Origin: Cyanocohniella sp. LLY
GTDB taxonomy: Bacteria; Cyanobacteriota; Cyanobacteriia; Cyanobacteriales; Nostocaceae
NCBI GenBank assembly: GCA_022241785.1
Contig: JAKOMP010000013.1
Coordinates: 1 to 64,000 of the forward strand
Direction of reading: 5' to 3'
DNA length: 64,000 nt
The notes beneath the pieces are model-generated. The model was given only the letters and a program-made list of their open reading frames with translations, searched no databases and was not told the DNA's origin. The number at the start of each line of letters is the position of its first letter. The first letter of the stretch is position 1. Shown in pieces: positions 4,433-52,210 of the stretch. The position numbers were made by a program, and so were the translations under genes.

Positions 4433-5920
4433 ATGGCTGATCTAGACAAAAATCTTCATGAAGTGCCAAAACTCGTTTCTAGCCTCAAGCTGAATCTTGG
4501 TAATTCTCATGAAATCATGCAACAAGTTGTTTTAGTAAATAATATTCAAGATGAATTACAGAATATTCAACAAATTATTGCTCAAGAACTCAACCTCATA
4601 AAAAGTAAAAATAATTCTGTTGCGACACTTCCACGTTTGGGTACAGTAGTTACTTTGTTTTTTCCTAATGTTGATTTAGGAGAGACAAAGATTAATGCCA
4701 CGACAAGATATATTACAGCAAAATTTGGCAAGCCAGAAAAAGAAATATCAATTAGTGACTTACAAGCCAAAATTGATGGCTGGATTGAATGGGGTGATTT
4801 TATTCAGGTAATTTCCGCAGACATTTTAAGTGATACTCAGTTAGTAAGTCAACTAAATGCGGATATTAATCATTTAAGCTTACCTACACAAATTCAAAAT
4901 ATTCATGAAAGCCTCAAAATTAACTTAGCTTTTACCAATCCTAAAATATTACAGAAGCAAATTCAACAGATTAGCCATGTTCATCAAGAAATCTTAGACG
5001 TACAGCAAAGAATAATTCATGTCATCACTACTATTAAAAATAGCCGTAGTTTATTAAATATATTCATAGGTATTTCATCTTTTTGGGGTAATTCTGGCTT
5101 TACATTAGAATGGTTAGATGATGACCAAGAATTGATTATCTCTAGTGATGGTAAATTTCATGAATTAACAGATATTTTAAATGACTGTGAATTATTACAG
5201 CAAGAAATTGATAATTTAATTATCAAAATTAATGCTTTAACAAAGCAAGCGGAACAATCACTGAAAAATATTGCCCAAGAACCTGAGCAAAAACCAGTTA
5301 TTAATCATCAACCAAATGTAGTACCCAAGATTGCTTCACAAAAAAAATTCCATTCAACTTTTCTTATCGCCTCAAGTTTAGTCATTTTAAGTTTTGGTAG
5401 TTGGATGATTAAAAACCAAATACCATATATGCAAAAAACAGTTGAGAGTTCTAATCAAGAAACTATTGCATCTACCAATTTTAATTCTGCACTCAATCTA
5501 GGATTAGAAGCCTCTGCTTTAGTACAAAATCCCCCACTACCCCTAGAAGTTTGGCAGCAAGCAGAAAGCAAATGGCAACAAGCAATAGACTTATTAGCAA
5601 GTATTCCCGAAGGAACATCAGTTTATCCTCCCGCAGCAGATAGATTAGTGCGTTATCGTTTAAACCGGATTGCTATCAATGAAAGAGCATTAAATGAAAA
5701 AAAAGCCGGAGAAAAATTAAGAGAAGCTCAAAAGTTAGACACAGAAGCTACTTTCTTTGTGAAAAACTCGCCTCAATCTGTTTTAGCTTTACAGCAAGCA
5801 AAAAATAAATGGCAAGCAGCCATCAAATTATTAGAAAGTATTCCTCAGAGTACATCTGTATATCAACAAGCTCAAGAAATTATGCCTATTTATAAAAGTA
5901 ATTATGCAGCTATTAAGTAA
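4433..5920 (+). CDS. Membrane-anchored protein with C-terminal W-x-x-A repeat units, function unknown
   Basis: I do not recognise a named function for this 495-residue protein. The N-terminal 300 residues are charged, rich in Gln, Ile and Asn and probably mostly helical or coiled. A single membrane segment spans about 309-327 (FLIASSLVILSFGSWMI). Behind it are two copies of a unit of about 65 residues, near 370-430 and 433-490, each with W-(Q)-x-A-I-x-L-L-x-S-I-P-x-x-T-S-V-Y and a following A/Q-rich helix. The same pattern occurs in other cyanobacterial TPR-like repeat proteins. Topology suggests a cytoplasmic N-terminal domain and extracytoplasmic repeats, or the reverse. The gene stands alone. 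Confidence 0.7.
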   Translation: MADLDKNLHEVPKLVSSLKLNLGNSHEIMQQVVLVNNIQDELQNIQQIIAQELNLIKSKNNSVATLPRLGTVVTLFFPNVDLGETKINATTRYITAKFGKPEKEISISDLQAKIDGWIEWGDFIQVISADILSDTQLVSQLNADINHLSLPTQIQNIHESLKINLAFTNPKILQKQIQQISHVHQEILDVQQRIIHVITTIKNSRSLLNIFIGISSFWGNSGFTLEWLDDDQELIISSDGKFHELTDILNDCELLQQEIDNLIIKINALTKQAEQSLKNIAQEPEQKPVINHQPNVVPKIASQKKFHSTFLIASSLVILSFGSWMIKNQIPYMQKTVESSNQETIASTNFNSALNLGLEASALVQNPPLPLEVWQQAESKWQQAIDLLASIPEGTSVYPPAADRLVRYRLNRIAINERALNEKKAGEKLREAQKLDTEATFFVKNSPQSVLALQQAKNKWQAAIKLLESIPQSTSVYQQAQEIMPIYKSNYAAIK

Positions 5921-5931
5921 ACTAATAAATA

Positions 5932-6552
5932 CTAATTACTATCCACTTGCAAAATTTGTTCCGCCGTTAAATTTAAACCTGGGAATGCTAACGATTCAAT
6001 TTTATCACCACCTCTAAACTGGCTAACTTGATACTCACCTTCAACCAGTTGGTAAACAGAAATAGTGGGTTGTTTAGGGTTACCGATAAATTTCCGTCCC
6101 CCTAAAGCTAGGTAGTCTACTACCCAATATTCCGGAATCCCCATTTCTTCGTAGTCGGCTAACTTTTTGTAGTAGTCATCTCGCCAGTTAGTACTTACTA
6201 CTTCAATCACCAACGGCACAGATGCACATTGAATAATAGTGGATTGTTTTTTCCATAAAGGTTCATTTGCCAAGTTCGCACGGTTCAATATCAAAACATC
6301 TGGTAAATAAGCTGACTCGCTTTCAGGTGGTTTGACCAATGCTTGTTTAGGGATAGTATAGGGAAGATTTAGCCGTTTAATCTCCGTAGATACTTCTAGT
6401 GTTAAAAATCCTCCGATATCTTCATGTTCACCTGATGGCTGTGGCATCTCAACAATTACCCCATCATATAGTTCATAGCGTTTACCTTCAGGCTTCCACT
6501 CCAAAAACTCTGCGTAGGTTACTAGTTTAGGCTGGGGTATGGCTTGAGTCAT
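5932..6552 (-). CDS. Uma2-family (DUF820) putative endonuclease
   Basis: This is a 206-residue member of the DUF820/Uma2 family, which is greatly expanded in filamentous cyanobacteria and has a PD-(D/E)XK nuclease fold. Typical parts are visible: TYAEFLEWKPEGKRYELYDG near the N terminus, YLPDVLILNRA in the middle, PLVIEVVS with the acidic E-V-V-S core, and DYYKKLADYEEMGIPEYWVVD. The role of these proteins is unknown. It is convergent with the preceding membrane-protein gene, with 11 bases between stops. Confidence 0.85.
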   Translation of the reverse strand: MTQAIPQPKLVTYAEFLEWKPEGKRYELYDGVIVEMPQPSGEHEDIGGFLTLEVSTEIKRLNLPYTIPKQALVKPPESESAYLPDVLILNRANLANEPLWKKQSTIIQCASVPLVIEVVSTNWRDDYYKKLADYEEMGIPEYWVVDYLALGGRKFIGNPKQPTISVYQLVEGEYQVSQFRGGDKIESLAFPGLNLTAEQILQVDSN

Positions 6553-6627
6553 AAAACTTCTCTAGTGCATTCGATTAATGAACTACTCCCACTAAAATGA
6601 CAATAGCGGGAGTTTCCCATTTCATAA

Positions 6628-7455
6628 TTAAACTTTCGTGCGGTCTGTCAAAATTTCGTAACCAGTTTCCGTCACCAAAACTGTATGCTCAAACTGTGCT
6701 GATAGCGAATTATCTACAGTTACCGCTGTCCATCGGTCAGATAATATTTTTGTGTGCTTAGAACCTGCATTTAAAATTGGTTCAATTGCTAAAGTCATCC
6801 CCGCACGCAGTTTGACATTTGGCATTTCGCGCGTACGAAAGTTGAAAACTGAAGGTTCTTCGTGTAGATTCCGACCAACACCATGTCCGGTAAATTCTTC
6901 TACTACACTAAAACCATTAGCTTTCACATGGTCTTCTATTGCCCCTGCGAGGTCAAGTAGGTAAGCACCTGCTTTGACTTGTTCAATCCCTTTAAAAAGA
7001 GACTCTTCCGCTACGCGAATTAGTTTAGCTGCATCTGGAGTCACTTCACCCACGGCAATAGTAATGCAGGAATCACCGTGAAAACCTTGATAAAAAGCAC
7101 CCGTATCTACTTTTAAGACATCCCCAGTCCGAATTACTTTCTTAGGATTTGGGATACCATGCACTACTTCATTATTAATACTGGCACAAATAGAACCTGT
7201 AAAACCGTGATATCCCTTAAAACTTGGTGTAGCATCCATTTCGCGGATACGTTTTTCGGCATAAGCATCCAAGTCAGCGGTGGTCATTCCGGGCTTAACC
7301 ATCTCAGAAATTTCTTTGAGAACAGTAGCCACAATTTTTGCTGACTGCCGCATAATTTCAATTTCTCGCGGCGATTTAATTTCAATCCCTCGGCGCTGTT
7401 TTTTTGCAGGTTTCGGCTGAGTTTTTTGAGCAAGCAAATTACTGAGAATGTTCAT
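6628..7455 (-). CDS. map: Type I methionine aminopeptidase
   Basis: The enzyme removes the initiator methionine from new proteins in the cytoplasm. The 275-residue sequence shows the pita-bread fold metal ligands: two Asp in [15 protein letters not shown], His in [13 protein letters not shown], Glu in AIEPIL and Glu in QFEHTVLV. The N-terminal extension of about 25 basic residues ([14 protein letters not shown]) precedes the catalytic core and lacks the SH3-like zinc region. The window alone does not show whether other map paralogues exist. Confidence 0.92.
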
Positions 7456-7551
7456 GGGGAATTAATAATTACTGGCGCATTACTGCTATAGTCGCAGTAT
7501 TTTTTCTTATATTTACGTTAACTTATTTTTGCCCCATCCTTTGTCTGTGGA

Positions 7552-7573
7552 GGACTAGAGGCTAGAGGCTAGG
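7552..7573. repeat. Short tandem heptamer repeat (GGCTAGA type)
   Basis: Three copies of a seven-base unit (GGACTAG, AGGCTAG, AGGCTAG) occur in the gap between map and the cupredoxin gene. The same family recurs at 22266-22296 and 29638-29681. Confidence 0.65.
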
Positions 7574-7581
7574 AAGTTTCC

Positions 7582-8094
7582 TTAGTTTGCGATCGCAATT
7601 TCACCCTTCATTCCGGCTTTCGTATGACCAGGTATAGAACAGTGTAAGTTGTAATTTCCTTGTTTCATCGGCACAAACACCCATTCTGCTTCTGCACCTG
7701 GCTTGAGTTCTAGTTCGTGAATGGCACCTTTGACTTCTACTTTGCCGGCTTGGACTTTTTGTGTCCAGATACCATCAGCAAAATCTTTGGCGGTGAAATA
7801 ATGCTTCAATTGGCTGGGATTAGTCAGGCGCAGTAAATAACGTTTACCTGGGACAAATTCCAAATGATCAGGTTCAAACTTGAGTTCGTTGGCAGAATTA
7901 CCTAAACTAATTTTAATTTCTGTAGCAGGTTGTTTCAGTAAATCTTCTGCTAAATTTGCCGCGATCGCCGGATTAGCAATGATTAAACCCAGGCATAGCA
8001 ACAAACACAATACAGTAATTTTTCTCACTAGTTGCAGCCTAGCTGCTAAAAGAAGGTATAAATTTTCTGAATTTTCTGTAAATAACGCCTTCAT
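7582..8094 (-). CDS. Secreted plastocyanin-like cupredoxin-domain protein
   Basis: The 170-residue product has a signal peptide with hydrophobic core ITVLCLLLCLGLIIA and a likely cleavage after NPAIA. The mature part is a cupredoxin domain. Type-1 copper ligands are present: His in the LKHYFT stretch, then Cys and His in HCSIPGH and Met in KAGM. It lacks the typical plastocyanin core sequence and resembles cupredoxin domains of the COX2/nitrosocyanin group. Its electron-transfer partner is unknown. The ATG at 8094 is used; an upstream TTG at 8103 is less likely. Confidence 0.8.
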   Translation of the reverse strand: MKALFTENSENLYLLLAARLQLVRKITVLCLLLCLGLIIANPAIAANLAEDLLKQPATEIKISLGNSANELKFEPDHLEFVPGKRYLLRLTNPSQLKHYFTAKDFADGIWTQKVQAGKVEVKGAIHELELKPGAEAEWVFVPMKQGNYNLHCSIPGHTKAGMKGEIAIAN

Positions 8095-8308
8095 TGTTAT
8101 CAATAGCCTTAATGAAAATTATGGTGGCAAATTGCTAAAAAACGCCTTACCTATTCACCATTATTCACTCGGTGTGCAACTTATGGCTTTTGATATAGCA
8201 ATCTGAGTTGGGTAGGTAAAAAAAGATAAAAGTACCAAAAAAATTCAACAGTAGTTTGACATAATTTGGAAGAAATAAAAATGTAGTTAAGTATAGATTT
8301 ATGAAAAT

Positions 8309-8323
8309 AAATGATAATCATTT
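8309..8323. promoter_or_regulatory. Fur-family operator (perfect 15-base palindrome)
   Basis: AAATGATAATCATTT is a perfect palindrome about its central A and matches the core of the Fur consensus (GATAATGATAATCATTATC); a Zur site would look similar. It lies 215 bases upstream of the cupredoxin start (minus strand) and 38 bases upstream of a 17-codon ORF on the plus strand. The aquaporin gene is about 540 bases further on. The controlled gene is not certain. Confidence 0.65.
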
Positions 8324-8360
8324 ACATTTTTTATTTTATTGAGAGGAATATAAACAAGTT

Positions 8361-8414
8361 ATGGTGTCATATCGCTACTACACCGTAAAAGAGCCAAACG
8401 AATTGTCTATATAG
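8361..8414 (+). CDS. Possible 17-residue micro-ORF behind the Fur-type box
   Basis: An ATG at 8361 with a GAGAGGA Shine-Dalgarno-like stretch at 8341-8347 opens an ORF encoding MVSYRYYTVKEPNELSI and a TAG stop. It lies directly downstream of the Fur-type palindrome. It may be a leader peptide or chance. No similarity is recognised. Confidence 0.25.
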   Translation: MVSYRYYTVKEPNELSI

Positions 8415-8566
8415 CAAAAGCGAATTGTCATAAAATCCTCAAAAATAATTTTGCTTTACCTTAGTACAAGAGAGAAATCATACTTCATTGGTTAATTACA
8501 GTGGATTATTTTCGTATTTTGCAGGTTGTACATCACCTTAATTGAGTAATAATAAATATTTTTTTT

Positions 8567-8580
8567 AAAGATGCATCTTT
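8567..8580. promoter_or_regulatory. 14-base palindrome with a TATAAT element downstream
   Basis: AAAGATGCATCTTT is a perfect palindrome. It is followed by TATAAT at 8594-8599, a candidate -10 element for the small ORF at 8680 and the aquaporin gene. It may be an operator for that promoter. Confidence 0.35.
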
Positions 8581-8679
8581 CTGATGACTTCATGTATAAT
8601 CCTGACTAAATAGAATAAACAAATATTTACTAACTAACTAAGAAACGTGTAAACGTCCTCCAGGAAGTTAGTCAAATAA

Positions 8680-8763
8680 ATGCATTTTGTTGATGAAAAT
8701 GTACTAAATTCACCTGTAGTACAAATTTTGGACTGTAGGGAATCTAAAGGAATTTTCACATAA
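8680..8763 (+). CDS. Possible 27-residue ORF upstream of the aquaporin gene
   Basis: An ATG at 8680, preceded by CCAGGAAG at 8660-8667, encodes 27 residues (begins MHFVDENVLNSPVVQILD and ends RESKGIFT). It ends 97 bases before aqpZ and could be a leader peptide in the same transcript. Only the ribosome-binding site and position support it. Confidence 0.25.
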   Translation: MHFVDENVLNSPVVQILDCRESKGIFT

Positions 8764-8860
8764 GGCTTGTCTAGTCTAATTGAACTTCAACTTAATCGCA
8801 GTTAGCAGAGTTTCTTTTTTGCTGATGTGTAAAATTTGAAATCGCCTAAGGAGTTTTTTA

Positions 8861-9634
8861 ATGTCTCTTATCAAACGTAGCTTGGCGGAATTTATTGGCA
8901 CATTTTGGCTGGTATTGGGCGGATGTGGTAGTGCTGTTTTAGCCGCAGCTTACACAACCGAAAGTGCCAAAATCAGTGTTAATACTTCTTTTCCCTTGGG
9001 TATTGGATTAGTAGGCGTATCTTTGGCATTTGGATTGACTGTACTCACCGGGGTTTATGCACTCGGTCATATTTCTGGTGGTCATTTCAACCCTGCTATT
9101 TCTTTTGGGCTTTGGGCAGGTAGGCGCTTTCCTAGTTCAGACTTACTACCTTATATAGCCTCTCAAGTACTTGGAGCCATTGTCGCTGGAGGCGTTATTT
9201 ATCTCATTGCTAGCGGAAGAGAGGGATTTACCTTAACAGGCTCTAATCCACTCGCAACCAATGGGTTTGGCGTTCATTCTCCAGGTGGTTACAATCTGTT
9301 GGCGTGTCTGGTCACCGAAGTTATCATGACTTTCATGTTTTTGCTGATTATTCTCGGTGTTACAGATCGTCGCGCTCCCAAAGGATTTGCGCCACTAGCA
9401 ATTGGTTTGGCACTCACATTGATTCACCTGATTAGCATTCCTGTAACCAATACAGCAGTCAATCCTGCTCGTAGTACTGGAGTTGCTATATTTGCTGGGG
9501 CACAACTTTTTTCCCAATTATGGCTATTTTGGGTAGCTCCTATCTTTGGTGCTATTGTGGCAGGATGGTTTTATTTAACAGTCTTTAGTGAAACACCTGT
9601 AGAGGCACAACGAAATATCGAAGAGCTAGTGTAG
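8861..9634 (+). CDS. aqpZ: Aquaporin Z
   Basis: This 257-residue channel conducts water across the plasma membrane. Both pore motifs are intact: HFNPAIS in loop B and AVNPARS in loop E, the second followed by the Arg of the selectivity filter. Six membrane helices and two half-helices are apparent. The GGHFNPA context and the His in [10 protein letters not shown] are as in AqpZ rather than in glycerol facilitators. AAGGAG lies 10 bases before the ATG. A long 5' region with a Fur-type palindrome and two tiny ORFs precedes it. Confidence 0.93.
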
Positions 9635-47600: not shown

Positions 47601-48641
47601 TTACAAAAGCGTCCCGCGTTTGATTTGTTCACTTTCGATGGCCTCAAATAAGGCGCGAAAATTGCCTTCCCCAAAACCTTGAGCTTGATAACGGCGCTCT
47701 ATAAACTCAAAGAAAAAGGTCGGCTGTCCAAAAATCGGTTGGGTAAAAATCTGTAGTAACAATGCTTTTTGGGCATTTTCTTGCCAATCCACCAAGATTT
47801 CCTGTTGGGCGATCGCCTCAAATTCTCGTTCTGATAAAGGAAGTTGCATTCGTTGTTTGAGTTGCGAGTAGTAGGTTTGGGGTACTGAGAGTAAAGACAG
47901 TCCACGCGCACGAAATTGAGCGATCGCGCTGATCAGATTTGTTGTCCGCAAGGCGATGTGTTGAATTCCCGAACCCCGATTGACATTCAGAAACTCCTGA
48001 ATTTGGGAGTTGCGTGAAGCTGGTTCATTAATCGGTAACTGGACACTACCGTTACGGGAAACCATCACTTGGCTATATAAGGCAGAGCGATCTGTTTGAA
48101 TTTTGAAACTTTGTTGGGGTTGAAAATCTAAAATTTTTTCATACCAAGCAACAGCAGACTCTAATTCCCCTACTGCCACATTGAGTACTATGTGATCTAT
48201 GGCAGTGAAAATACCAAGTTGAGAAGTAATAAAATCTTCATCATTTACTTGGGGTTTTTCAATCAACGTATGAGTCAACCCACCCCAAGCCGTAATTTTG
48301 CCACACTTGAGGGAAACATTACCTTTTTGCTGTTCCTGGATAGGTTGGATGACTTCTGCACCATGTATTTGAGCTAGTGCGATCGCTGCTTCCACATCTT
48401 CAATCACAAAAGCGACATCTGCAACTCCCGGTGGGTGTTGGCGCAGAAACTCAGCCACCGGACTTGTGGGTAATAAGGCTGAAGACAGAAAAAAGCAGAC
48501 ACCACCATTATTCACAACTTCTGTACAAGTGTGAATTGTATTAATATTACTATCTACTGCTGTAAACCCCAAGTGGTTTACAAACCAATCCCGCCAGACT
48601 CTGGCATCATCTACATAGAAATGAACGTGATCAATCTTCAT
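47601..48641 (-). CDS. hpd: 4-hydroxyphenylpyruvate dioxygenase
   Basis: The 346-residue enzyme converts 4-hydroxyphenylpyruvate to homogentisate for tocopherol and plastoquinone-type pathways or tyrosine breakdown. The iron ligands are in the C-terminal half: His in AIDHIVLNVA, His in GSGIQHIALRT and Glu in FFFEFIER. The N-terminal half holds the first VOC barrel (MKIDHVHFYVDDARVWRDW). Length and domain order are normal for the cyanobacterial enzyme. Confidence 0.88.
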   Translation of the reverse strand: MKIDHVHFYVDDARVWRDWFVNHLGFTAVDSNINTIHTCTEVVNNGGVCFFLSSALLPTSPVAEFLRQHPPGVADVAFVIEDVEAAIALAQIHGAEVIQPIQEQQKGNVSLKCGKITAWGGLTHTLIEKPQVNDEDFITSQLGIFTAIDHIVLNVAVGELESAVAWYEKILDFQPQQSFKIQTDRSALYSQVMVSRNGSVQLPINEPASRNSQIQEFLNVNRGSGIQHIALRTTNLISAIAQFRARGLSLLSVPQTYYSQLKQRMQLPLSEREFEAIAQQEILVDWQENAQKALLLQIFTQPIFGQPTFFFEFIERRYQAQGFGEGNFRALFEAIESEQIKRGTLL

Positions 48642-48752
48642 AAATCCTGAGAATCCAGCACAACAGCTTATATGTCCGTGATTTTTGTCTTTTTTGCTAG
48701 ATTATCAAGTCTTTACTCATTAATCATATACCAGTATGCATAGGCTACTATC

Positions 48753-50209
48753 TTATCTTAGAGCTACTTGCCATCTTTTGTCTGTTTGCTGAAGGTTAAA
48801 AGAATTACACGACTGCAAAAATTTAATAAAATTGCCAGATAAATGTAAAGCTTTGATTTTTTCAGTGATTGGTTGATGATAACGCTGACTAAATGCACTA
48901 CCTAACGTTCCAATATCAATAAAACTTTTTGGAGATTTAGGAGTTAATTCCTGAAGAATGACTTTCAGTGCTTGTTCTAAATCCCCTGAAGAATTAATAG
49001 TAGATATATGATTATCTAAAGATTTTTCTAATACTGGATGCTGGGAAAATACAGTTATATATAATTCAGATGTACTATCTACTTGATGAACAGCAAAATC
49101 ATTGGCATACGCCAAAAAAACATCTTTAGGTTTTTTATCAGGAAAGTGTTGATTAATTACTTGCTTAATACTTAAATGATATTTATTTTGAAAAGCTTGA
49201 GAGATATTAGAAAACTTTACCCAATAAATCTGCTGATTGTCTTGCTCGATTTTAATTAATTGTTTGATTTGTTGAATAAATTTATTTACTGGAGGAATAT
49301 CTAAATAATTAGGAATTGCTATTTCTTTTCCGTTTGAGCTATTAAATACTTTTAAAACTTCTTCTTGTTTATATACTTGATATATTATCAAACCATATTG
49401 TTGTAGATGATTGCATAAATTTGTCATAACTTGATCAGACGAACAAACTATCACTTTTTGCACATTACAGCGGTTCCCGCTATTATGCAATACGGTTTTC
49501 TCCCGGCCCCTCTCCTAGCAAAGCTTTCAGTTTTGAGGATGTACCTCATAGCTGCTGGAAGTGCTGTAGCGTAACGTTGATGAACTGATGAACCTAAAGC
49601 TATCATTTTACCATCAGCATTATCTCTACCAACGGGAACATGAATTAATTCATAACCACGCTGATGGAATTCTACATCTCGTTTACCCATACTACACCAA
49701 TTAGCAAAGGCAATCTTGACTTGCAGAGGATAGGTACACACTGTAGTTAAAAATTGTTCTGCTGTAGTGTTAAGTCGTAAATTTTCTGCATCTAGTAAAA
49801 GAATAGCAATACCTGAAGAAATAAAAGTTTTTTGTTCGTTTTTTAATACTTGTACATTACTAAAGTTATTTTGTTTATTTAAAATCAGATCTCGACTTAA
49901 TTCACGAATAAATGATTCTAACTCTTGGAAGGCTGGGGAAGTAAAAAAGAATGGAACTAACAAAATTTCCAAAAATTCTTTAATCTTTGGTAACAAGATT
50001 CGATAATCTACTATATTACTAATTTTTTTGTTGATTTCAGTAATTAGTGCAGATTGATATTTAGGATGACTCCAATTAATATTTTGGTATTTGACAGTAA
50101 CTAATTCAGGATGGTGTTGTAAAATCGATACAATCTTATCAGCAATAGATACACTTAGCCGCTTTATTTCCGAATCATCAGTCTTGAGCAACTTTTCGTC
50201 ATTTTTCAT
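48753..50209 (-). pseudogene. NYN-LOTUS domain protein gene split by a MITE
   Basis: The open frame from 50209 encodes an N-terminal region and NYN nuclease-type domain (AILLLDAENLRLN, VGRDNADGKMIALGSSVHQR) but is disturbed at 49568. A second frame (48753-49490) holds the rest: NVQKVIVCSSDQVMTNLCNH and two OST-HTH/LOTUS-type domains. A 99-base element plus a TA duplication sits at the break. Removing 101 bases gives 452 codons (451 residues) with R-Y-A-N-V-Q-K across the join. NYN-LOTUS proteins bind or cut RNA. The second ORF only starts at a TTG within the insert, so a functional full-length protein is unlikely. The first 252-residue ORF might still be made. Confidence 0.85.
49466..49568. 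mobile_element. 99-bp MITE inside the NYN-LOTUS gene, TA duplication
   Basis: TA at 49466-49467 and TA at 49567-49568 flank 99 bases that begin CAGCGGTTCC and end GGAAGTGCTG. The ends are imperfect inverted repeats (CAGCGGTTCC and CAGCACTTCC). TA duplication suggests IS630/Tc1-mariner-type transposition, an inference. The element has no ORF and shifts the host frame by two. Confidence 0.8.
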
Positions 50210-50546: not shown

Positions 50547-51332
50547 TCAAGCAATACGGGCAAAAATATAATCGCGAGTACGAGAATCTAGAGGGTTGGT
50601 AAATATTTTTTTAGTAGCACCAAATTCAACCATTTCACCAATGCGATTTTCGTTGTTTTGAAAAAAAGCTGTAAAGTCAGATAAGCGCGTGACTTGTGGC
50701 AAATTGTGGCTAACAATTACCATTGTCAATTCTGATCGCAAACGCAAACTTTGAATCAAACTTTCAACTTTCATGCTGGCAATGGTATCAAGGGCAAAAC
50801 AAGGCTCATCCATGAGGATAATTTGTGGTTTAACGGCTAAAGCACGAGCAATACAAAGTCGCTGTTGTTGACCGCCAGAAAGATCTAAAGCTGATTTATG
50901 CAATTTATTTTTCACTTCATCCCAGAGGTCAGCATCTTTAATGGCAGATTCTACAATTTCGTCTAGTTCTGCTTTCGGGCGCCACCCGACTATTTTCACT
51001 CCATAAGCTACATTATCGTAAACACTCATAGGAAAAAGATTCGGCTTGGAGAACACCATACTAACTTGGCGACGTAGCCGATTTAAGTTGACCCGACGCT
51101 CATAAATATTTTGATTAAAAAATTCCACTCTACCCTCAACCCGCACCTCAGCCTCTAATTCAACCATGCGATTGAGGCATTTCAAAAAAGTAGATTTTCC
51201 ACAACCACTAGGGCCGATAATCGCAGTTACTTTACCCTGATAAATATCCATTGATACCCCTTCTAGTATCTTTTGGATATTGTAATAAAAACTAAGATTT
51301 TTGATTTTGATGGCTGGAATTAATTTATTCAT
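50547..51332 (-). CDS. pstB: Phosphate ABC transporter ATPase, first copy
   Basis: The 261-residue ATPase powers PstSCA phosphate import. Walker A is GPSGCGKST, the signature [16 protein letters not shown], Walker B ILMDEPCFALD. The D-loop region reads CFALDTIAS where other PstB copies have TSALDPIAT, and FSKPNLFP replaces FQRPNPFP. It sits apart on the opposite strand from the second pstB, about 1 kb from pstS. These differences suggest a diverged paralogue. The ATG at 51332 is used because the in-frame start at 51368 adds 12 unconserved residues. Confidence 0.88.
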   Translation of the reverse strand: MNKLIPAIKIKNLSFYYNIQKILEGVSMDIYQGKVTAIIGPSGCGKSTFLKCLNRMVELEAEVRVEGRVEFFNQNIYERRVNLNRLRRQVSMVFSKPNLFPMSVYDNVAYGVKIVGWRPKAELDEIVESAIKDADLWDEVKNKLHKSALDLSGGQQQRLCIARALAVKPQIILMDEPCFALDTIASMKVESLIQSLRLRSELTMVIVSHNLPQVTRLSDFTAFFQNNENRIGEMVEFGATKKIFTNPLDSRTRDYIFARIA

Positions 51333-52210
51333 GCTAAATAAATTGGGCAATAAATACTGACTAAACAAAGTAGTGAAACTAAGTGATGCTGTTTTGTTAT
51401 TTGTGAAGTCAATATGGACTCGTAATTATTCCGAGTAAAGTAAGGCTAGATTCAATGATAGCTAACCAGCAGTATCTAGTAGATATTTACATCAAAACCA
51501 ACACTTATATGGCATATGTTAACTAAAAGAAAACCGCTCATTTTAAAGTCAGATCAAATCTGCTACATTGATTGCATCAAGTTAAAATTCAGCAAATAAC
51601 ATTACAGCAATTTTTTAATCACCTAAATTCAGTTCAACTAAAATAATCGATTTATTGCTTTCGATTGTTATGCATTATCTCATGGCTTGGAACTGCAATC
51701 AGGAGAATCATGGCCTTACAAGCATCAGTCTGTAAATACTAGTAGAATTGCGGAATGCCTTTAGATAGAGCAAGACCACAGAATGGCTACTTTCGTAGTC
51801 TAAACATTACTAGCCCAGATTGTCGATATGTAAATATATTGAATACACACACCAGCAACACTAGTTTTAGTCGGTTCTATTTGCAAAGCGTTCCCTAGCA
51901 AAAGAAACAGGAAGTAGCTTAAAACTCTAAAATCCACAAGGGGTAAGACTTTCAGTACAGGGGGAATCACCGCGCCAGTCCATCTTGTCCTTTGTTTAAG
52001 AGTTGTCTATATCCAGGAGTAACATTGATCACTCAAATCAGAAAGTTGTGAAATCTAAAACACAAGGAGCTTGCTGTATCTTGTGGGTGGATATGAATTA
52101 AAAAGCAAATAAACAGCTATTGACTGCTTGTATAAATTATTTACTGATAAATGATCTTAATTTTACTGAAAATTTGGTGCCAATAAATTGTGAATACTCT
52201 ACCGAAGAAG
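51333..52210. other. Long non-coding region between divergent pst genes
   Basis: About 880 bases show no ORF of gene size. A 21-codon ORF beginning MHYLMAWNCN at 51669-51734, overlapped by a 10-codon one (51710-51742) with an AGGAG site, has no known relatives. The region 51940-52100 contains purine-rich strings such as CAAGGGGTAAGAC and AGTACAGGGGGAATC. It could hold an unrecognised RNA or be regulatory DNA for both pst transcripts. Confidence 0.4.

Follow-up and report, generated by a model that had tools for sequence, protein, structure and literature searches.

The 64,000-nucleotide stretch analysed here (the window) lies on a contig of Cyanocohniella sp. LLY, a cyanobacterium of the Nostocaceae, and carries two adjacent, overlapping minus-strand ORFs that meet at a short segment flanked by TA. 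This arrangement raises the question of whether the ORFs are two genes or one gene that has been split, and, in the latter case, what split it, where the intruder came from and what would be left of the gene product. We find that a miniature inverted-repeat transposable element (MITE) has inserted into an NYN-domain gene and split it; for the insertion itself our confidence is close to certainty. The features are listed in Table 1.

Table 1. Features of the interrupted gene and of the element within it (window positions)
Feature	Position	Strand	Description
Whole interrupted NYN(-LOTUS) gene	48753..50209	-	451 codons and stop, 101-base insertion discounted
5' half of the split gene	49451..50209	-	N-terminal part and first part of NYN (214 residues), continued by 38 residues encoded in the element and the 3' flank, stop
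3' half of the split gene	48753..49490	-	Last part of NYN and C-terminal part, LOTUS-like in orthologues; TTG start inside the element
MITE with both flanking TA	49466..49568	-	Element proper 49468-49566, 99 bp; based on copies, alignment and frame join
MITE left end with its TA	49547..49568	-	TACAGCACTTCCAGCAGCTATG; matches the end pattern
MITE right end with its TA	49466..49487	+	From outside inwards TACAGCGGTTCCCGCTATTATG; matches the end pattern

Results

The two ORFs belong to one NYN gene

The interval 48753-50209 comprises 1457 bases, and when 101 of these are removed, the remaining 1356 read as one open frame, 451 codons long before its stop, with the join reading ...HQRYANVQKVIV...; this restoration of the frame had been proposed from the sequence alone and is borne out. 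Because 101 is not a multiple of three, the insertion breaks the frame. A protein search at E 1e-10 across 100 genomes gave matches in 59, this one included, and none in the other 41. The best homologue matches at 61% over residues 1-451 without a stop, and this genome holds no second copy of the gene, only the two halves being matched. For the alignment, we took the joined protein together with the ORFs from 39 loci whose match ran from residue 150 or earlier through residue 310 or later. The two halves from the window and two short ORFs with matches confined to residues 325-450 were left out, and the homologue matches beyond these loci are known from rows of the search table only. All 40 homologue rows (among them two pairs in which one sequence comes from two collections, and two rows that share a locus) are ungapped at the junction, as in YAHAKEVIVCSSD or YPNAKEVLVCSSD against YANVQKVIVCSSD, so that the homologues are continuous where the window carries the additional 101 bases, as the sequence-only reading had expected of orthologues. 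The gene is itself broken in two relatives, by a frame break in G015, possibly a sequencing error in a run of A, and by five stops within the match in G014. Since the 99 relatives include no congener, an empty site in a near relative was not seen at the DNA level.

Mechanical ORF calling yields two ORFs, as it would for two independent genes on either side of a repeat; we consider this to have a negligible chance of being correct, given the uninterrupted homologues, the passage of every aligned row across the junction and the detection of NYN in the joined protein only. The joined protein matches Pfam NYN at residues 137-245, narrowly passing the cut-off (24.5 bits against 24.2), with the junction after residue 214, whereas neither half on its own matches at E 1. 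NYN was found in all nine orthologues searched at E up to 0.1. The same threshold revealed OST-HTH (LOTUS) in seven of the nine, with a best E of 1.1e-5 and a score of 18.1 against a cut-off of 23.8 for the first member, but gave no match to it, at E 0.1, in the joined protein from the window. The earlier designation of the ORFs as halves of one NYN-LOTUS protein thus stands as regards the single gene and its NYN domain, whereas LOTUS is seen in orthologues and not in the joined protein itself.

The structural searches were less informative. An orthologue was modelled with low quality (mean pLDDT 63, pTM 0.29), and no match in the PDB fold search reached E 0.001; in the second row stood 2qip (E 3.1e-3), which we take to be an NYN/LabA-like protein and which is at most suggestive. 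A sequence profile search gave no convincing solved relative, the best hit being a ribosomal protein at E 0.085, and among the literature matches listed for NYN, LOTUS and LabA no title concerned this protein. The split gene is probably one of RNA processing and may target RNA.

The gene neighbourhood was compared at seven loci, two of which are stretches of one record from two collections. Three neighbour genes are collinear in G039 and in L033. At the other five loci, the neighbour at 50550-51425, presumably a phosphate-transport ATPase, is present in four, and that at 47604-48701 in one (L045); none of the neighbours was found at L046. The stretches compared are short, and the absence of a neighbour may reflect their reach.

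The insertion is a MITE with 19 copies in the genome

On the minus strand, the inserted segment has the form TA-CAGCACTTCC...GGAACCGCTG-TA and measures 103 bases with both TAs and 99 without; read from 49568 to 49466, it spells TACAGCACTTCC...GGAACCGCTGTA. Its ends are imperfect inverted repeats, agreeing at 19 of the first 30 bases with the TA counted. In the genome we found 19 full-length copies of 99-100 bp, the window copy included, with 86-100% identity. When these were aligned with 25 bases per side, all began with TACAGC and finished with GCTGTA, and outside these limits the flanks showed no evident similarity. The occurrence of 19 full-length copies in unrelated flanks excludes a chance origin of the element, and all parts of the original description, namely a 99-bp MITE with TA on each side and imperfect inverted ends, are borne out, and the search for further copies that had been proposed came out in its favour. 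TA stands at both ends of every copy, and one TA remains in the join that restores the frame. With both TAs, 12 copies measure 103 bases and seven measure 104, which means that the target gains 101 or 102 bases. A search of window positions 49300-49800 against Rfam gave no family at E 1. The element is confirmed as a non-autonomous transposable element (MITE) without a transposase gene.

Thirteen of the 19 copies fall into sets of identical sequence (three, three, two and five copies), and the other six are singletons. The terminal inverted repeats of the five-copy subfamily agree at 22 of 30 positions and are thus still imperfect. The window copy belongs to a set of three, being identical to copies on contigs C82 and C72, and such identical copies point to recent movement, in support of the earlier description of this insertion as recent. 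All 19 copies have A or T next to the right TA (p 4e-5), and 17 of 19 have one of these bases next to the left TA (p 0.004), a regularity that was noticed post hoc and that we do not press.

Among the 100 genomes, 11 match the MITE at E 1e-5, that is, this genome and 10 of the 99 relatives; at most eight candidates per genome were scored, and the copy numbers in the relatives are therefore lower bounds. Relative G015 matches by a 28-base end alone. This match was considered as an autonomous copy and rejected, as it is a lone end in a genome with no related IS630-type transposase at E 1e-30; the surrounding ORFs include fragments that we take to resemble an ISL3-type transposase. The element also matches 12 of 72,556 plasmid records (11 Nostoc, one Calothrix), and no match was found among 50,697 phage records at E 1e-5. 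A published name for the family was not found by topic or by end sequence, many subscription papers being outside the reach of these searches, and the matches listed for three end sequences included no cyanobacterial title.

A resident IS630-type element is the probable source of transposase

Contig C126 carries a 1019-base element (L026:1501-2519) with TA-flanked inverted ends, TACAGCACTTCCGTCTGTAATGAGGTAC and TACAGCCTTTCCGGCTGTTATGAGGTAC, and TACAGC at both ends. Its orfA matches HTH_Tnp_IS630 (E 9.8e-9) and its orfB DDE_3 (E 6.7e-27); orfB lies in the -1 frame of orfA, and the two meet where nine A stand in a row. At its left end, the window MITE agrees with each end of this element at 24 of 30 bases, and at its right end at 19 and 22 of 30. 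The earlier proposal to search for IS630-type transposases with the same ends leads to an element whose ends are similar (19-24 of 30) and not identical. We drew up an end pattern, TACAGCNNTTCCNNCNNNNATG, from the MITE ends and those of the 1019-bp element, which it consequently favours. It occurs at 46 sites in the genome. Of the 38 MITE ends, 36 carry it, and the remaining 10 sites are spelled like the left or right IS end (the list was read by eye); the reversed control gave no site in the genome. Both IS ends were seen at C126 only, the other eight IS-like sites being single ends, and the assembly holds one complete copy of the 1019-bp element, with two ambiguous bases. Elsewhere, the pattern occurs at 12 sites in G006 and at five in G048.

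We consider it likely that the transposase was supplied in trans by this resident element. Mobilisation by another IS630-type element is a less probable but serious alternative: the MITE and IS ends are not identical, the ends of a second resident group come close to the same similarity (18-21 of 30), and MITEs occur in relatives that have no close transposase. At E 1e-30, a related transposase is present in five of the 10 relatives matching the MITE search and missing from the other five, for which reason the partnership between MITE and IS is an inference; the best related transposase in G006 is 40% identical. What speaks against another mobiliser is that all 46 sites of the end pattern are MITE ends or resemble those of the 1019-bp element, a result to be read in the light of the pattern having been built from those ends. 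The second group is located at G000:C221:28384-28881 and on related contigs, with an orfB that is 71% identical and ends that read TACAGCACTTTCC. Several transposase matches of both groups begin or stop at contig ends, and the repeats thus probably broke the assembly.

Coding capacity of the interrupted gene

The upstream ORF, 252 residues long, crosses the whole element and ends at a stop at 49451; its last 38 residues comprise 34 encoded by the element and four by the flank. The element also provides a TTG at 49490, preceded at a distance of nine bases by GGGAG, and the earlier statement that the second ORF has no proper start was therefore too strong; a protein starting there would be without most of the NYN domain. 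The last codons of the first ORF include AAA AAG TGA (within window positions 49451-49465), where slippage by -1 would lead into the second ORF; this is probably a coincidence.

These features could be read to mean that the gene still yields a working protein, either as a full-length product with a 34-residue insert, if ribosomes shift frame by -1 at C AAA AAG TGA, or as two chains that re-associate after re-initiation at the TTG. The 101 added bases require exactly a -1 shift, a slip at the end of the first ORF (ATG TGC AAA AAG TGA) enters the second, the two ORFs overlap around a start with GGGAG upstream, and both gene halves are otherwise open. However, the run of A belongs to the host gene, which makes the slip site probably a matter of chance, and C AAA AAG is a poor slippery site. 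Moreover, the RNA fold of the MITE is no better than that of shuffled sequences (z -0.93), the cut falls inside the NYN domain, and open halves are to be expected in any case if the insertion is recent. We regard a working product as very improbable. The insertion parts the DNADGKM segment of the NYN domain from the VIVCSSD segment, and we infer from this that it inactivates the NYN protein.

Genes interrupted by other copies

Each insertion was removed by script, a stop-free frame was sought across the site, and nine frames were scanned against Pfam, seven of them joined and two as they stand. A Pfam domain spans the site, once the insertion is discounted, at seven other copies, so that with NYN this is the case for eight of the 19. 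The domains crossed are Imm30, Cas2, 23S_rRNA_IVP, AAA_31 (ParA-like), MFS_1, PIN and a short kinase fragment, the last of which may have been broken before the MITE arrived. The frame at L012 gave no match in the Pfam scan. At C221:27442-27545 (L008/L102), a 102-base insertion is read in frame and adds 34 residues just behind a ParE-like domain, near the gene end; this is the only in-frame case seen among the copies. Most of the remaining nine copies have no long frame across the site, those at L010 and L014 measuring 141 and 87 aa.

The copy in cas2 is identical to that in the window and lies in L135 (G000:C72:12000-31000), where positions 5219-9437 carry a reverse transcriptase (RT) gene, cas1, the split cas2 and, after these, a CRISPR array in which a 36-base repeat occurs about 17 times. 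The same burst probably disabled this CRISPR adaptation module.

We do not claim an insertion bias towards nuclease or defence genes, as the distribution would be explained if the loss of accessory genes is tolerated. A bold proposal would be that bursts of the MITE silence genes for nucleases, toxin-antitoxin systems and immunity (NYN, PIN, Cas2, ParE-like and Imm30) across the genome, reversibly through excision, and that a gain of 101 or 102 bases decides between a knockout and an in-frame peptide of 34 residues; we offer this as a long shot that is most probably wrong.

Discussion

The observations are best explained by the insertion of a MITE of the IS630/Tc1-mariner type, which moved into a TA within the NYN domain of an NYN(-LOTUS) gene; TA now stands on both sides of it, and the 101 added bases break the frame. 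If the 1019-bp element supplied the transposase, its orfA and orfB would need to be joined by a -1 frameshift at the run of nine A. Excision and insertion may have proceeded as in ISY100 of Synechocystis, a member of IS630/Tc1-mariner that is described as being excised by double-strand breaks, inserting almost only into TA and duplicating it (PMC2170065).

The locus offers a clean case of non-autonomous elements making pseudogenes of accessory genes in Nostocales, with the likely autonomous partner still resident. It also serves as a warning for annotation, in that the two ORFs are one gene, and, to judge from the identical copy in cas2, the CRISPR adaptation module appears to have been hit in the same burst. 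Nothing here overturns existing knowledge.

The kind of event is already in print, both for MITEs that break cyanobacterial ORFs (PMC3542288) and for MITEs in cas genes (PMC10359306). In the account of Anabaena sp. 90, 15 of 147 MITEs lie in disrupted ORFs (PMC3542288). The likeness, one of description, consists in short gene-breaking elements in a related cyanobacterium. The Anabaena elements are, however, reported there as type II MITEs whose ends have no evident similarity to resident ISs, whereas an IS630-type element with similar ends resides in this genome. With ISY100, the window element shares a cyanobacterial host, the TA target and its duplication; ISY100 is autonomous, unlike the 99-bp element without a transposase gene described here (PMC2170065). 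ISs and MITEs in cas genes have been recorded by a database survey and an IS-trapping assay (PMC10359306), to which the cas2 gene split by an identical copy of the window MITE adds a single natural case. Finally, intragenic MITEs can make in-frame fusions, as reviewed for elements such as the Rickettsia palindromic elements (PMC10969869); the 102-base insertion at the end of the parE-like gene resembles these, whereas the window copy breaks the frame instead.
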